Assembly (NCBI GenBank): GCA_028066245.1
Contig: JALCBR010000026.1
Span: 1-48,961 of the forward strand
DNA: 48,961 nt
Direction of reading: 5' to 3'
Source of the DNA: Pirellulales bacterium
GTDB lineage: Bacteria; Planctomycetota; Planctomycetia; Pirellulales; S012-138
Shown in pieces: positions 3,083 to 23,613 of the stretch. Below the pieces are notes generated by a model, which made no database searches, was not told the origin of the DNA, and was given only the letters and a program-made list of their open reading frames with translations. Positions within the stretch are counted from its first letter, which is position 1; each line of letters opens with the position of its first letter. Both the position numbers and the translations under genes were made by a program.

Positions 3083-3332
3083 TTGACCCGCGTCACACTT
3101 CCAAGCGCGCGTATCCGCTCACTTATTGTTCAACGTATGTGTGCTGATGGCGTCTTCTTTGCGCGCTCAACTTTCCCTGCCTGTACAGACACGGCGCATA
3201 ACTTGTTGTGATGGGAGACAGTCCGACCGCAACGTTGTGATTGCCCAAGCGTTGTGCCATATTGTCAACGCGGCGCAGTTGGAAGTGAGTTTCGACGATC
3301 GCTCGTGTGACCTCTCACGACAAGGATGTGCG

Positions 3333-4511
3333 ATGGTGAAAACCAATGCGCAGGACAGTTCTCCTCTTCCCGATGTCCCTCACGGCGGGCGGATTGACTT
3401 CCGCAGCAACACAACACCAACACTCGGCGTTGAACTCGAGTTTGGAATTGTGGATGCCAATTCGATGGCGCTTACCAGCGCCATCGAACCACTTCTGAAC
3501 AAGCTTCCGGATCACGTCTGCGATTTCGTCAAGCCGGAGTTGATTCAGAGTTGCGTTGAGGTCAACACCAAGGTGTGTGCCACCGTTGCCGAAGCGGGAC
3601 AGGATCTGCGCGGCAAGATTGAGGCGGTGGAAGCCGCATGTGATGAGTTGAACCTCGGCTTGTGGTGGGGAGCCACTCATCCGTTTTCGCGCTGTTCTGA
3701 TCAGGAGATCACTCCTAACGAGCGCTATCGCGATTTGGTCGATCTGTTGCAAGAAATGGCACGCCGGCTGGTCTCTTTTGGGCTGCACGTGCATGTCGGT
3801 GTCGATTCGGGCGACAAAGCCATCATGATTTGCGACCGGATCATGCAGCATTTGCCCACCTTGTTGGCGATGACCGTCAGCAGTCCCTTCTTTGAAGGCC
3901 GCGCCACCGGTTTAGCGTCGATTCGATCTAAGATCATGGAGGGATTGCCAACAGCAGGCATGCCCCCTTTGATGCGCAATTGGAGCGAGTATGTCTGGCT
4001 GATCAATCACCTCGTCGATACGGGCTTCATCAACACAATCCGTGAAATTTGGTGGGATGTCCGCCCGCATCATAATTTCGGCACGGTGGAGATCCGCATT
4101 TGCGATATGCCCGGCAACCTGGAGGATGTGCTGGGGGTCACCGCGCTCATTCAGTGTTTGGTCAAGGCGTTGTCAGACATGATCGATCGTGGGGCTTATC
4201 AGCATGATTGCCATCCGATGATGGTTCGCCAGAACAAATGGCGAGCCGCCCGGTATGGCAACTCTGCCCAGTTGGTGGATGCGTTTACGCACGAAGTCCG
4301 CGATCTGAACAGCGTCGTAACGGAGCTTGTGGAACGGCTTTGGCCAACTGCTCAGGAACTTCAGTGCGAAGAACACCTCCGGCACGCTGTCCGGATCACG
4401 GAACTGCCGAGTTGGGCCGAGCGTCAGGAAACGTTACTGAAGGAAACAGACGATCCTGCGGAAGTCACACGCCGTCTCGTCCAGCAATCACGACTTTCCA
4501 TTCCCACGTAG
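3333..4511 (+). CDS. Glutamate-cysteine ligase family 2 (YbdK-like carboxylate-amine ligase)
   Basis: Encodes 392 residues. ATG 3333 is chosen because AAGGA lies 7-8 bp before it and similarity starts soon after; upstream in-frame codons from a TTG at 3126 look non-coding. The N-terminal TPTLGVELEFGIVD is the ATP/metal-binding entry motif of the GCS2 superfamily. Further family blocks are VKPELIQSCVEVNTKVC, LWWGATHPFSRC, SFGLHVHVGV and HHNFGTVEIRICDMPG, where the His and Glu residues bind Mg-ATP. Members form an amide bond between a carboxylate (often glutamate) and an amine. Escherichia coli YbdK has weak glutamate-cysteine ligase activity, but the natural substrate is usually unknown. The length is typical. 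No glutathione synthetase is nearby, so glutathione production is not implied. Confidence 0.87.
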   Translation: MVKTNAQDSSPLPDVPHGGRIDFRSNTTPTLGVELEFGIVDANSMALTSAIEPLLNKLPDHVCDFVKPELIQSCVEVNTKVCATVAEAGQDLRGKIEAVEAACDELNLGLWWGATHPFSRCSDQEITPNERYRDLVDLLQEMARRLVSFGLHVHVGVDSGDKAIMICDRIMQHLPTLLAMTVSSPFFEGRATGLASIRSKIMEGLPTAGMPPLMRNWSEYVWLINHLVDTGFINTIREIWWDVRPHHNFGTVEIRICDMPGNLEDVLGVTALIQCLVKALSDMIDRGAYQHDCHPMMVRQNKWRAARYGNSAQLVDAFTHEVRDLNSVVTELVERLWPTAQELQCEEHLRHAVRITELPSWAERQETLLKETDDPAEVTRRLVQQSRLSIPT

Positions 4512-4654
4512 TTGCACTTTTCACTGGGGACAACGGCACCTGTGCAGATGAACATCTGGCCTCAGAGTTGTCTGCCGCTCAACAATGTCACATCTGACTG
4601 GTGCAATATCTTGTTGATGCCAGCACGCTCGCTGCTCAATGGATGTGACTAAGG

Positions 4655-18332: not shown

Positions 18333-18498
18333 GAGGTTTCCTTCGCAAAGGAGTTGTTCGTACGGACGGTCGAGAGCATCTCTCCCATCGGTTCATGCCT
18401 TTTCCCAGGCACCACGGCCAAAAAACTGAGGATTCGCGTTGGCCGGCGGGGAATTGCCGAGAACAATACAGCGACCACACGTCCTTGGGGATTTCGCC

Positions 18499-19980
18499 AT
18501 GCCCAACGCCGATTCACAACTCCTGCTGCGGCAACTGGCTGGTGAAGACGCAACTGCGGAACAAGAACTCTTTACGCGATACGCCGAGCGGATCCGCGCA
18601 TTGGCCGCAACGAAGCTTTCTCGACATGCAGCCGCCGACACGGATGCTGAAGACATCACGCAGTCCGCGTTGCAGTGCTTTTTTGCTGGTGCAAGAGATG
18701 GTCGATGGACCTATACAAACCCGGGCGACTTATGGCGGTTGCTCGCCGGAATCGTCATCAATAAATGCAAAGCATTCCACCGCCGGCAAATGACTCTGAG
18801 ACGGGACATCCGTCGAGAGCGGCCGCTCAACGTTAGACAGGGTCTGAGCAACGTGGAGTTGAGCCCCCCCGCCAGCCACCCCTCAGATCGCGTCTTGCTG
18901 TGGGAGGCAGCCAGCGTGATCTTTCGCGCGCTCAGCAGCGAGGAACACGAGTTGGTCAAGCTGAAACTCGGCAGCGCCAGCACGGAAGAAATTTCACAAG
19001 CTCTGAACGTGTCTGTCCGCAGCGCGCGCCGTAAGCTGGCCGCGTTGGAACAGAAACTCCGGGAGGTTTTGTCTTCATCGTACGTTGTTACACAGCCGGC
19101 AATCTCACCTAGTGAAGGCGAGGCGGACCAGTCGGATTTCGCGGACGCTTTAGACCAACTCTTCCAACAAGTTGGCAAATTGCGCTACCAGGACTTGCTG
19201 CTGGAACAGCTCGTCGGCTCAGGCGGAATGGGCAAGGTTTTTCGCGCGGTTCTCACAACAAGCGGAGAAACCGTTGCGGTCAAAGCGCTCGCCCGGCGGC
19301 ATCACTCCAATCCCGCAGCAGTGACAGCGTTCCTGAATGAAGTCTCGCTGATGGCACAAATCAACCACCCAGGAATCGTTGCACTCCGAGGGCTGGGACA
19401 ATTCCCGGCTGGGGGGCTCTTTCTGGTGATGGACTTCGTTCGTGGAGAGAACCTTGGGCAGCGGATCGAACGCGCCCCACTTCCGCCTCCAAAAGCGCTG
19501 CAAATTGCCCTCGACGTGGCCAGATCGCTGCATGCTGCTCACACCAGCGGCGTTGTTCACTGTGACTTGAAGCCTGCCAACATTCTGCTTTCAAAGGGAG
19601 GACGAACCTTGGTGACGGATTTCGGCTTCGCGCGGCTGATCGCTCCGCATCGTTTGGGCATGCCGGACCTTCCGCTCAGATTCGCTCCGCTGGGCGGGAC
19701 GCCGGAATTCGCCGCGCCGGAACAATTGGATGGTTTGCCAGACTCACTTGCGCCAACGGTCGACATCTACGCCTTGGGAAAGGTCCTGATGGCGATGTTG
19801 TTGCGTCGCGTTCCCGCGACACACCAGGAAACCCGCGCGGCCCTCGCTGAACTTCAAGGTGCGCCGCGTGCGATCTGTGGGCGGTGCACAAAGGCAAATC
19901 CGGCCGCCCGATATTCTTCCGTCAAAGAATGCGCAGACCAATTGCACAGTGCGTTGCAGAGGATCGACGCCTCGCCTTGA
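18499..19980 (+). CDS. ECF-type sigma factor fused to Ser/Thr protein kinase
   Basis: A single open frame of 493 residues from ATG 18499. Residues ~10-95 look like sigma region 2 (EQELFTRYAERIRALAATKL, then DAEDITQSALQCFF with the conserved DxxQ-like helix, and LWRLLAGIVINKCK). Residues ~135-192 look like region 4, with the helix-turn-helix EEISQALNVSVRSARRKL. After a ~35-residue linker comes a Hanks-type kinase: Gly loop GSGGMG (240-245), Lys262, Glu281, catalytic loop HCDLKPAN (His354, Asp356, Asn361), DFG 374-376 and APE 406-408, then VDIYALG. All catalytic residues are intact. The HRD arginine is replaced by Cys (non-RD kinase). Its C-terminal subdomains are short, ending ~60 residues after the last clear motif. 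Planctomycetes often place STK genes beside ECF genes; here they are one protein. Signal and target promoters unknown. Confidence 0.88.
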   Translation: MPNADSQLLLRQLAGEDATAEQELFTRYAERIRALAATKLSRHAAADTDAEDITQSALQCFFAGARDGRWTYTNPGDLWRLLAGIVINKCKAFHRRQMTLRRDIRRERPLNVRQGLSNVELSPPASHPSDRVLLWEAASVIFRALSSEEHELVKLKLGSASTEEISQALNVSVRSARRKLAALEQKLREVLSSSYVVTQPAISPSEGEADQSDFADALDQLFQQVGKLRYQDLLLEQLVGSGGMGKVFRAVLTTSGETVAVKALARRHHSNPAAVTAFLNEVSLMAQINHPGIVALRGLGQFPAGGLFLVMDFVRGENLGQRIERAPLPPPKALQIALDVARSLHAAHTSGVVHCDLKPANILLSKGGRTLVTDFGFARLIAPHRLGMPDLPLRFAPLGGTPEFAAPEQLDGLPDSLAPTVDIYALGKVLMAMLLRRVPATHQETRAALAELQGAPRAICGRCTKANPAARYSSVKECADQLHSALQRIDASP

Positions 19981-20884: not shown

Positions 20885-22453
20885 CTACTTGATCGTTCCC
20901 CGCCCGTTGGCTGCGCCAGGCTGCTTGACTTCAAATTCCAAGTCGCCTGTTTGCAAGAACCCTGTCCATCCTTGGTCGCCACCGGTGCTAACATCGGGAA
21001 TCCGTAGTTGGAACGCAGCCTTGTATTTTCCGGGGGTGAGCGTGGGGACGTAGACCACGGGGTGTTTGAAGTCTGCGGATTTCATACGGCCGCCAGCAAT
21101 CCCGATGGGACCGGAATCAATCACGGCCTGTTCACCGGGCGCCAGTTTGTAGCGCTTGATGCGTGGAATGCCGGAATACCAGTTGGTCGAAATCTTGTCG
21201 ACGGGTTTGCCATCTGCTCCGGCGACAAAGATACGATCATCCTCGCGCCATTGGGCGCTCTCAAACTCAACTGGCTTGTCGGAAACGTTGCGAATCACAA
21301 ATTCGAAATCGATCGTGTCGCCGAACTCGAATGGCCCAGCCTGTGTTTTATCTTTCAATCGCAATGCCGCTTGCAGGCCGTCCACCTTTTTTCCCCAAGC
21401 CGGTTCGCCGGGGTGAATTTTTTTCTTCTGCTGATCGGATTGATCTTGGCCGTTGGCATTGCTTGCTTGAGAGAGACTCGTGCTGACAAAAACGTCTGCG
21501 GTTTGGCCAGCTGCACTGATCGGATCACTACTAAGGAGTGTAGGACTCGCTGCGACTTGCCCCGGCCCCTCGCTTTGTGCCACAGCTGAACCCATAGCCA
21601 CCCATGCGCAGGCGAGCCCTAACATGACTACAAGCGCGTGGCGAATTGTCGTCGTGAGAGTCATCGATTGAATCACTCCATGAGCGAGTGTGTGAGGAAT
21701 CGCGGCGGCAGCCTCGCTGGCAGCCAAACCCGCTTGGACATGAAACACTGTTTGTGTGCAGGTGTCCGCCAGATGAACCAGCTCAGTCGCGCTCACCCAG
21801 ACCGATTGTTGATGGGGCAAGGCCGTCAGGGCGGCCAGCGAAGCTCCGCAAAGTGCCAGGCGACGGCGAAGTTGGCCACGAGCTTTCTTCAGCCGACCTT
21901 GAACGACCCCAGGCGTGATGCCCAGCCGGACTGCGGTTTCTGCACGGGTGAGTCCTTCAAAGTACGTTAACAACACGGTGCTTCGTAGCGGTTCGGGAAG
22001 CCGGGCGACAGCTTCGTGCACGGCCGCAAAGTTGGCTTGAGCGGAAATGTTGCGGAGTTCTTCACCAGCTGTTTCGGCAACCACATCCAAGGACTGCATC
22101 TTTCGGTCTTGTCTGCGCTTGCGAGCCCGTAGTGAGATTCTCATTGCCACGCGGTGGAGCCAAGCGGCAAGTCCGTTCGCCCGCTGGATGTGGCCAGACT
22201 TACGGGCAAGCACAAAGAAGGTTGCTTGAAAAGCGTCCTCCGCGTCAGCTTCGCTCTGGAGCACGCTACGGCACACCGACATCACAATCCGACCGTGCCG
22301 CAAGACCAACAGGCGAAACGCCTCCTGGCGAGCGGATTCGGGAGAGCCTTCGCTGATACTTGACGTTTCCGTCAACTTGCGGAGGTCTTCTGAGGGTAGT
22401 TCTCCGCGGAAAGTGGCCAGCAATTCGGCGTCACTGAGGTTGGCTCGCGACAT
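20885..22453 (-). CDS. Membrane-tethered ECF sigma factor with C-terminal outer domain
   Basis: Encodes 522 residues from ATG 22453; an in-frame TTG 30 bp upstream is the only alternative. Residues ~40-115 are sigma region 2 (FRLLVLRHGRIVMSVCRSVL, DAEDAFQATFFVLARK, LAAWLHRVAMR) and ~145-200 are region 4 (ARLPEPLRSTVLLTYFEGLT with HTH RAETAVRLGITPGVVQGRLKK). A helical linker with many Ala leads to one hydrophobic span at ~271-293 (HALVVMLGLACAWVAMGSAV). Beyond it lies a Ser/Gln-rich spacer and a beta-rich domain from ~355 (GDTIDFEFVIRNVSDKPVEF), reminiscent of BsuPI-like Ig folds. The sigma part would face the cytoplasm and the beta domain the other side. ECFs with such tails are known in Planctomycetes. 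No anti-sigma gene is adjacent. Confidence 0.88.
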   Translation of the reverse strand: MSRANLSDAELLATFRGELPSEDLRKLTETSSISEGSPESARQEAFRLLVLRHGRIVMSVCRSVLQSEADAEDAFQATFFVLARKSGHIQRANGLAAWLHRVAMRISLRARKRRQDRKMQSLDVVAETAGEELRNISAQANFAAVHEAVARLPEPLRSTVLLTYFEGLTRAETAVRLGITPGVVQGRLKKARGQLRRRLALCGASLAALTALPHQQSVWVSATELVHLADTCTQTVFHVQAGLAASEAAAAIPHTLAHGVIQSMTLTTTIRHALVVMLGLACAWVAMGSAVAQSEGPGQVAASPTLLSSDPISAAGQTADVFVSTSLSQASNANGQDQSDQQKKKIHPGEPAWGKKVDGLQAALRLKDKTQAGPFEFGDTIDFEFVIRNVSDKPVEFESAQWREDDRIFVAGADGKPVDKISTNWYSGIPRIKRYKLAPGEQAVIDSGPIGIAGGRMKSADFKHPVVYVPTLTPGKYKAAFQLRIPDVSTGGDQGWTGFLQTGDLEFEVKQPGAANGRGTIK

Positions 22454-22605
22454 TTCGATAATTTGCGCGCTTTGCACGTTCAATTTCTAACAACGTCACA
22501 AAGAGAGAGACTTATGACGCCATGATCGGGTCAAGAATTCGCACAAAATTTTAGAAGTCAGTCCGCGATGACCAAATCGCGATCAATGCGGTCGGGAATC
22601 CCGCC

Positions 22606-23613
22606 CTATGTTCGCCATTTCTTGGCAAGCCAAGTGAGAAAATCGTGAGGCTGCTTCGCGTAGAGATCACGTCCAATCTGCAGTGCATGCTTTCTCAATC
22701 GAGCAGACTGTTTTTTCAGGATCGCGCGAACGACATGCTTTTCTTGCGCGGTGACCAAATCGTGAGGAACAGCACAGAGGAATTGACCAAGCACGGACAA
22801 GTCATGATCATCGCCCAGGAGTTCGCCCAATTGCTCAGCTTGTTTGCGTAGACGCTGCATCCGCTGCCGGGAAAACTCCCAAAGCAATTGCGCGTGGTAG
22901 CCTAGGTTTTTGACCTGCTTGCGCCATGCATGGAATGAGCTTGCCAACTGTTCTTCCGGGACGTTCTCATTCTTGACGTTTGCGATGGCATCCTTCATTC
23001 GCTTGCGTCCCGCTCGATACGTCCGCTCCAATCCAGCAAACAAGATCCTCTCCTGCATGCTTGCCCCGTTGTTCGAGGCGGTGTTTCCGGTATGGCAAGC
23101 AACGTTGGCATCGCGCTCATTGGCAACGGCGGTGGAGAAGTTCCAATCGCTCAGCCGGTCTCGGGCACATTCGATCACCTGGCGAAATTCACGCAAGCGT
23201 TGGGCAGGATGTTCGTCACCGGAAGGTCTTGCCTGCTTCTCGGCCGTTTGCTTGATGGCATGGCGAATTCGCGTGCAAGCTTCTTTGGATAAGCGGCGCC
23301 GCATGCGAGACTTGAGCTTGGCCAGCGTTTTGGAGCAAACGTCGGCATCGCGCCGCGAAGAGAAACGTTTGGCGGCGTCCTTGAAGCATGTGGATTCAAC
23401 CTTGGCCCGTTCCGGCATCCCAGGACCAATCAGTCGCAGCAACGCCCGAATCCGCTTGGTTCGCTTTCGGACCTGGTGAATGACGGATTCTGCCGCCATC
23501 GACGAATCCGCGATCTCGCCGATGGCCGCCTCAATCTCTTCGCGCGCAATGCGACGAACGCTGCCGATCAAGCCGTCTTTCAAGCCATCGTCCGGGCGAA
23601 TGCGAAAAGCCAT
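22606..23613 (-). CDS. CHAD domain protein
   Basis: Encodes 335 residues from ATG 23613. CHAD domains are all-helical, rich in conserved His, Arg and Lys, and bind polyphosphate granules. The two helical halves are visible: VIHQVRKRTKRIRALLRLIG (residues ~45-65), and SSFHAWRKQVKNLGYHAQLL with LGELLGDDHDLSVLGQFL (~225-280). The protein is strongly basic. The domain occupies almost the whole length and no CYTH domain is attached. It lies 122 bp upstream of the membrane sigma gene's start on the same strand, so cotranscription is possible but unproven. A role in polyphosphate binding is inferred from the family. Confidence 0.88.
   Translation of the reverse strand: MAFRIRPDDGLKDGLIGSVRRIAREEIEAAIGEIADSSMAAESVIHQVRKRTKRIRALLRLIGPGMPERAKVESTCFKDAAKRFSSRRDADVCSKTLAKLKSRMRRRLSKEACTRIRHAIKQTAEKQARPSGDEHPAQRLREFRQVIECARDRLSDWNFSTAVANERDANVACHTGNTASNNGASMQERILFAGLERTYRAGRKRMKDAIANVKNENVPEEQLASSFHAWRKQVKNLGYHAQLLWEFSRQRMQRLRKQAEQLGELLGDDHDLSVLGQFLCAVPHDLVTAQEKHVVRAILKKQSARLRKHALQIGRDLYAKQPHDFLTWLAKKWRT

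Follow-up and report, generated by a model that had tools for sequence, protein, structure and literature searches.

A single gene in the window, by which we mean the whole 48,961-nucleotide stretch analysed (contig JALCBR010000026.1 of a Pirellulales bacterium, assembly GCA_028066245.1), encodes a covalent fusion of an ECF sigma factor with a complete Hanks-type Ser/Thr kinase, and lies head-to-head with fdxA, the gene for an FdxA-like ferredoxin of 7Fe type, across an intergenic region that carries a conserved promoter-like motif (Table 1). The fusion protein may be a soluble, sensorless, one-protein phospho-sigma switch that acts in the cytoplasm within a planctomycete fdxA-linked ECF/kinase module and controls fdxA, itself or both, a reading to which we give an even chance. 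The arrangement points to an undescribed switch by which a kinase would control an iron-sulfur electron carrier. The known cases of sigma-factor phosphorylation are a few split ECF/kinase pairs; in this protein, kinase and substrate may be united in one chain.

Table 1. Features of the fdxA/sigma-kinase locus, with positions in the window
Feature	Position	Strand	Basis
fdxA, FdxA-like 7Fe-type ferredoxin, 92 aa	18054..18332	-	best NCBIfam match FdxA_Protbact; head-to-head with the fusion gene
Bipartite promoter-like motif, ATGC-N16-CGGCCA	18395..18420	+	found in 59 of 64 linked loci; missing upstream of almost every unlinked fdxA paralogue
Sigma-kinase fusion gene (P0001), 493 aa	18499..19980	+	open frame; PF07638 and PF00069; 53 distinct fused homologues
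ECF sigma part: sigma2 (residues 6-101), disordered linker (105-127), sigma4 (128-195)	18499..19083	+	Pfam; AlphaFold2; sigmaE (1or7) fold match
Acidic DAED motif of sigma2.2 (residues 49-52), retained unlike in ECF43	18643..18654	+	sequence; alignment columns in 133 relatives
Ser56 codon, in place of the Glu of DxxDxxQE; candidate phosphosite	18664..18666	+	Ser in 133 of 133 relatives
Variable tether linking sigma4 to the kinase, 33-86 aa among homologues	19084..19176	+	low pLDDT at residues 195-207; columns and lengths unconserved
Hanks-type Ser/Thr kinase domain (residues 227-491)	19177..19971	+	Pfam; AlphaFold2; PknB (5u94) fold match
Cys355 codon of HCD (non-RD), catalytic loop HCDLKPAN	19561..19563	+	column counts in 53 fusions

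The fusion gene is translated without interruption, and Pfam assigned residues 9-190 of the product to Sigma70_ECF (44.8 bits, cut-off 21.1, E = 1.7e-11) and residues 236-482 to Pkinase (134.4 bits, cut-off 31.7, E = 6e-39), which bears out the one-frame sigma/kinase fusion proposed in a preliminary description of this DNA. An AlphaFold2 model, for which 42 fused homologues served as input, was confident as a two-domain structure (mean pLDDT 86.5, pTM 0.66), with a loose tether (residues 195-226) that includes a short helix at residues 211-225. Fold searches of the model returned Mycobacterium tuberculosis PknB as the closest fold for the kinase part and Escherichia coli sigmaE for the sigma part alone. 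Scores against two narrower NCBIfam models were well under their cut-offs: 44.4 bits against 183.75 for Sig-70_plancto1 (TIGR02984), and 158.9 against 450 bits, over the kinase part only and with no transmembrane segment, for the PASTA kinase Stk1/PknB (NF033483). No membrane segment was found in the fusion protein, the highest 19-residue Kyte-Doolittle mean being 1.56, and the earlier view of the product as soluble is upheld.

A first scan of genome contigs with six patterns, including HCDLKPAN, recovered nine further single-frame fusions, all from Planctomycetota and with ∼29-35% identity over the best segments. The sigma domain was then used as a profile against the phylum (294 genomes) and the window's class (398 genomes); once 80 regions had been retrieved, the number stood at 53 distinct fused proteins or more. 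No fewer than 50 of these 398 class genomes encode the fusion, the window's own genome containing one; among the matches listed, fusions spanned eight families of this class and, within the phylum sample, were confined to it. The source genome is a draft in 186 contigs, and such fragmentation would suit an artefact of assembly or sequencing that merged two genes, an outcome named beforehand as able to overturn the fusion. That explanation is refuted by the 53 distinct fused homologues, some of them from single-contig genomes, and its probability is negligible.

The fusion is real, but it is not a one-off: the architecture is recurrent, and split versions are intermixed with fusions in the tree. 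A tree built with quick-tree settings from a concatenated alignment of the sigma and kinase domains, two points that call for caution, placed all fdxA-linked members, fused or split, in one group apart from the 35 unlinked pairs (SH-aLRT 94). The fused/split label required ten changes on this tree, at least seven of them being forced by well-supported branches; when two single-stop splits were left out, seven changes remained in all. A single origin, with all fusions in one clade, was rejected (AU p = 2e-44). The kinases of split members and of most tandem unlinked relatives carried an extra N-terminal domain that was found in no fusion; in L030, L033 and L041 this domain is conserved and comprises ∼150-180 aa, and Pfam names only the kinase in L030 and L041. 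From the changes on the tree and the absence of the domain from every fusion, we infer that a split ancestor gave rise to fusions repeatedly, with loss of the N-terminal domain each time, and occasional re-splitting may also have taken place. Such independent fusions would show, as a natural experiment, which components the pathway can do without. Three fusion-type loci contained one in-frame stop, within sigma in L028 and L224 and between sigma and kinase in L232, and represent recent splits, pseudogenes or assembly errors.

The partner gene and the motif beside it, the most informative feature of the locus, lie just outside the interval covered by the preliminary description and were missed there. 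The fdxA product had FdxA_Protbact as its best NCBIfam match (E = 1.5e-35), yet at 121.6 bits it remained under the cut-off of 135; its length and cysteine spacing are those of the seven-iron FdxA family (Azotobacter FdI type), and eight cysteines were invariant in 16 linked FdxA copies. A gap of 166 bp (18333-18498) separates the gene from the fusion. Head-to-head fdxA, at less than 700 bp, accompanied 49 of the 53 fusions, and among the remaining four it lay 1.5-2.2 kb away in two and was not nearby in two. The same arrangement was present with 14 split pairs, whose sigma and kinase are encoded by two genes in tandem, and closely related sigma/kinase pairs without fdxA were common. Because an FdxA profile search found the gene in 382 of 398 class genomes, it is the linkage, rather than fdxA itself, that constitutes the signal. 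The window's own genome has a second fdxA (G000, contig C48, 22434-22706; L343) with neither a sigma-kinase neighbour nor the intergenic motif. Selenocysteine encoded by an in-frame TGA, considered for some fdxA matches, was rejected for both of the matches inspected, in which this stop simply marks the C terminus. Locus L032, considered as fdxA beside a sigma-less kinase, was likewise rejected, since its frame begins inside sigma4 and indicates a truncated or misjoined fusion.

When 64 fdxA-sigma intergenic regions were analysed by expectation-maximisation, one bipartite consensus emerged, ATNC-N16/17-[CT]GGNCA, with a log-likelihood of 335 compared with 47-55 for three shuffled sets. The motif scored above the 95th percentile of random windows in 60 of 65 linked upstream regions, five having no clear motif, and the median score of linked regions was 16.0. 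Second copies of fdxA, the majority from module-bearing genomes, had a median of 3.2, equal to that of random windows, the one clear exception being a copy at a contig edge; other fdxA copies with no sigma neighbour also scored low (median 5.2). The spacer between the motif halves was 16-17 bp, and 18 bp in one locus, a spacing more in keeping with a sigma promoter than with a rigid operator. In the window, 63 bp separate the motif from the start of fdxA and 78 bp from that of the fusion gene. When read toward the fusion, its -35 half often resembles GTGAAT; distances from motif to start are similarly tight for the two genes, so either direction is possible.

It is probable that the sigma part reads this motif. 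Alternatively, the motif could be the operator of an unrelated redox regulator of fdxA, with the sigma-kinase gene only a stable neighbour, as its readability in either direction would allow and as its retention at fdxA in L236, where other genes have come between fdxA and the sigma gene, might suggest. This alternative is improbable given that paralogous fdxA copies of the same genomes are devoid of the motif, that the spacer varies as it does in -35/-10 promoters, and that the linkage is maintained across families whether the pair is fused or split. In L218 a transposase gene has come to lie between the two genes and the motif remains with the sigma gene; L236 and L218 thus favour opposite directions for the motif. 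The inserted gene (positions 3237-4551 of that locus, read as IS630 type) lies between the motif and fdxA, beside an intact fusion gene.

Within the sigma part, the DAED motif ends in an Asp (column 52) that was found in 53 of 53 fusions. The sequence DxxDxxQE is a sigma motif that contacts RNA polymerase (RNAP) (PMC13147305), and the invariant replacement of its Glu by serine marks Ser56 as a candidate phosphosite; most other ECFs of the window's genome have Glu, Asp or Ala at this position. The serine is just as invariant where the relative's kinase is split or divergent, and in 22 relatives whose retrieved stretch showed no kinase, and it therefore characterizes a wider kinase-linked ECF subclass and not the fusion. 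Sigma factors of ECF43 have no acidic DAED and need a phosphothreonine as substitute (PMC8999054). Activation of this kind, in which phosphorylation makes up for an absent acidic motif, was rejected for the fusion because DAED is present, and with DAED kept the sigma may bind RNAP in the unphosphorylated state.

The kinase residues named in the preliminary description, Lys262, Glu281, Asp356, Asn361 and Asp374 (of DFG), are all at the positions given there and were invariant in 53 of 53 fusions, which argues that phosphotransfer is under selection. The reported exchange of the HRD Arg for Cys was confirmed, and among the 53 fusions the residue preceding the catalytic Asp was Cys in 37, Gly in 12, Ala in 4 and Arg in none. 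Arg was likewise absent from 13 readable linked split kinases, so that 66 of 66 linked kinases are non-RD (HCD, HGD or HAD) compared with HRD in 39 of 41 unlinked relatives, although these counts are not independent and may reflect a single change on the tree. As HCDLKPAN had been a first-scan pattern, the recount was made on loci obtained mostly from sigma or FdxA profiles. The two unlinked HCD cases are L034, which came from the first scan, and L171, which is at a contig edge and falls inside the fdxA clade. A role for Cys355 as a redox switch is unlikely, Gly or Ala being present in 16 of 53 fusions. The window protein has no Ser or Thr between DFG and GT, and thus has neither the Arg nor the phosphorylatable activation loop of an RD kinase. 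Both features indicate a kinase that is not switched by activation-loop phosphorylation, and the earlier suggestion that activation may proceed without it fits this pattern.

Linked kinases, fused or split, mostly end directly after the kinase domain and have no transmembrane segment; among the unlinked tandem relatives, membrane-like segments are present in half, and long C-terminal parts in many. We identified no sensor domain in the fusion. With no transmembrane segment and almost no sequence past the kinase domain in the linked kinases, the input must be cytoplasmic.

In the scheme that we favour, the flexible tether would join a non-RD Hanks kinase to an ECF sigma of the kinase-linked type, fixing the kinase:sigma stoichiometry and keeping the local concentration high. 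A cytoplasmic trigger would lead the kinase to phosphorylate the sigma part, in cis or between two copies, with Ser56, beside the RNAP-binding acidic motif, as the most plausible site. The phosphorylated sigma would bind core RNAP and initiate at the bipartite promoter between the two genes, driving fdxA, the fusion gene or both. EcfP/PknT and EcfK/PknS provide a precedent, their ECF being phosphorylated directly by the linked kinase on this sigma2.2 surface (PMC8999054, PMC13147305). We lean toward a kinase that modifies its own sigma, most plausibly at Ser56 and, by analogy with EcfP and EcfK, to activating effect.

An opposite sign is conceivable, in which a phosphate on Ser56 or on the sigma2/sigma4 linker makes the sigma bind RNAP less tightly and transcription turns on when the kinase becomes inactive in response to redox state, ATP/ADP or ferredoxin. 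Retention of DAED, by which an unmodified sigma could be active, and the fact that loop phosphorylation is not required to switch on non-RD kinases would accord with such inhibition, but it is rather unlikely because phosphorylation activates the characterized kinase-linked ECFs (PMC8999054, PMC13147305). It is also quite improbable that the kinase domain is mainly a bound regulatory extension that holds the sigma by contact, as in ECF41-type proteins, its catalysis serving another target such as RNAP. The covalent C-terminal position of the kinase and the precedent of ECF-regulating C-terminal extensions (PMC8999054) agree with that arrangement, but the tether (33-86 aa) is unconserved and partly disordered, every catalytic residue is invariant, and pairs are freely split in the same clade.

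Returning to the activating phospho-sigma switch, its signal may, from the partner gene alone, relate to redox or iron-sulfur status, a proposal held at somewhat less than even confidence. A fuller version, in which a widespread, repeatedly and independently fused, sensorless phospho-sigma controls the divergent ferredoxin gene through a dedicated promoter while FdxA or the iron-sulfur/redox state that it reports serves as kinase input in an autoregulatory loop, is tentative and on balance unlikely. The module offers a named candidate phosphosite, a candidate promoter and a candidate target gene in at least 50 genomes, and the working of planctomycete kinase-linked ECFs can thereby be put to direct test using a single purified protein and a DNA fragment of 166 bp.

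Like the ECF43 pairs EcfP-PknT of Vibrio parahaemolyticus and EcfK-PknS of Xanthomonas citri, the module ties an ECF sigma genetically to a PknB-type Hanks kinase and has Ser/Thr at the sigma2.2 surface that contacts RNAP. Unlike them, the fusion is one polypeptide with DAED kept, a soluble non-RD kinase with neither sensor nor transmembrane segment, and a ferredoxin partner gene, whereas ECF43 systems are encoded by separate genes, their DAED is replaced (STTA/QTTA), and PknS is a membrane receptor kinase. Of the characteristics of ECF43, the fusion thus shares the linked cognate Hanks kinase, in covalent form, and not the replacement of DAED. Regulation by an adjacent kinase has been proposed for planctomycete ECF59, ECF61, ECF62 and ECF217 (PMC8999054), and ECF59 and the former ECF60 are reported to have a Ser in or near the sigma2.2 motif; those groups are described by the neighbourhood of separate genes, and the comparison with them is by description only. 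ECF41, ECF42 and planctomycete ECF-WD40 proteins likewise have a regulatory domain covalently behind sigma4, but in the fusion this extension is a complete kinase and not SnoaL, TPR or WD40.

A full-text search, with the founding ECF classification and phosphorylation papers outside its reach, returned no prior report of the covalent fusion, the fdxA link or the promoter. The novelty of the bare fusion is uncertain, as it may already appear in the founding ECF classification, and kinase-associated planctomycete ECFs are already known (PMC8999054). New here are the fdxA linkage, the intergenic motif, the recurrent fusion in one clade, the clade-wide non-RD kinases and the invariant Ser56.

Directly 3' of the fusion gene is a gene for a PLD-like nuclease (PF13091; 20062-20841, + strand). 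Nearby are a gene for another ECF sigma of 532 aa (20885-22483, - strand), which has a long C-terminal extension and of which Pfam covers the sigma only, and a gene for a CHAD-domain protein (22606-23613, - strand). Elsewhere in the same genome (G000), contig C72 (L201) carries a close sigma paralogue, a 315-aa frame divergent from a separate kinase, which forms a sister-type system with no fdxA.
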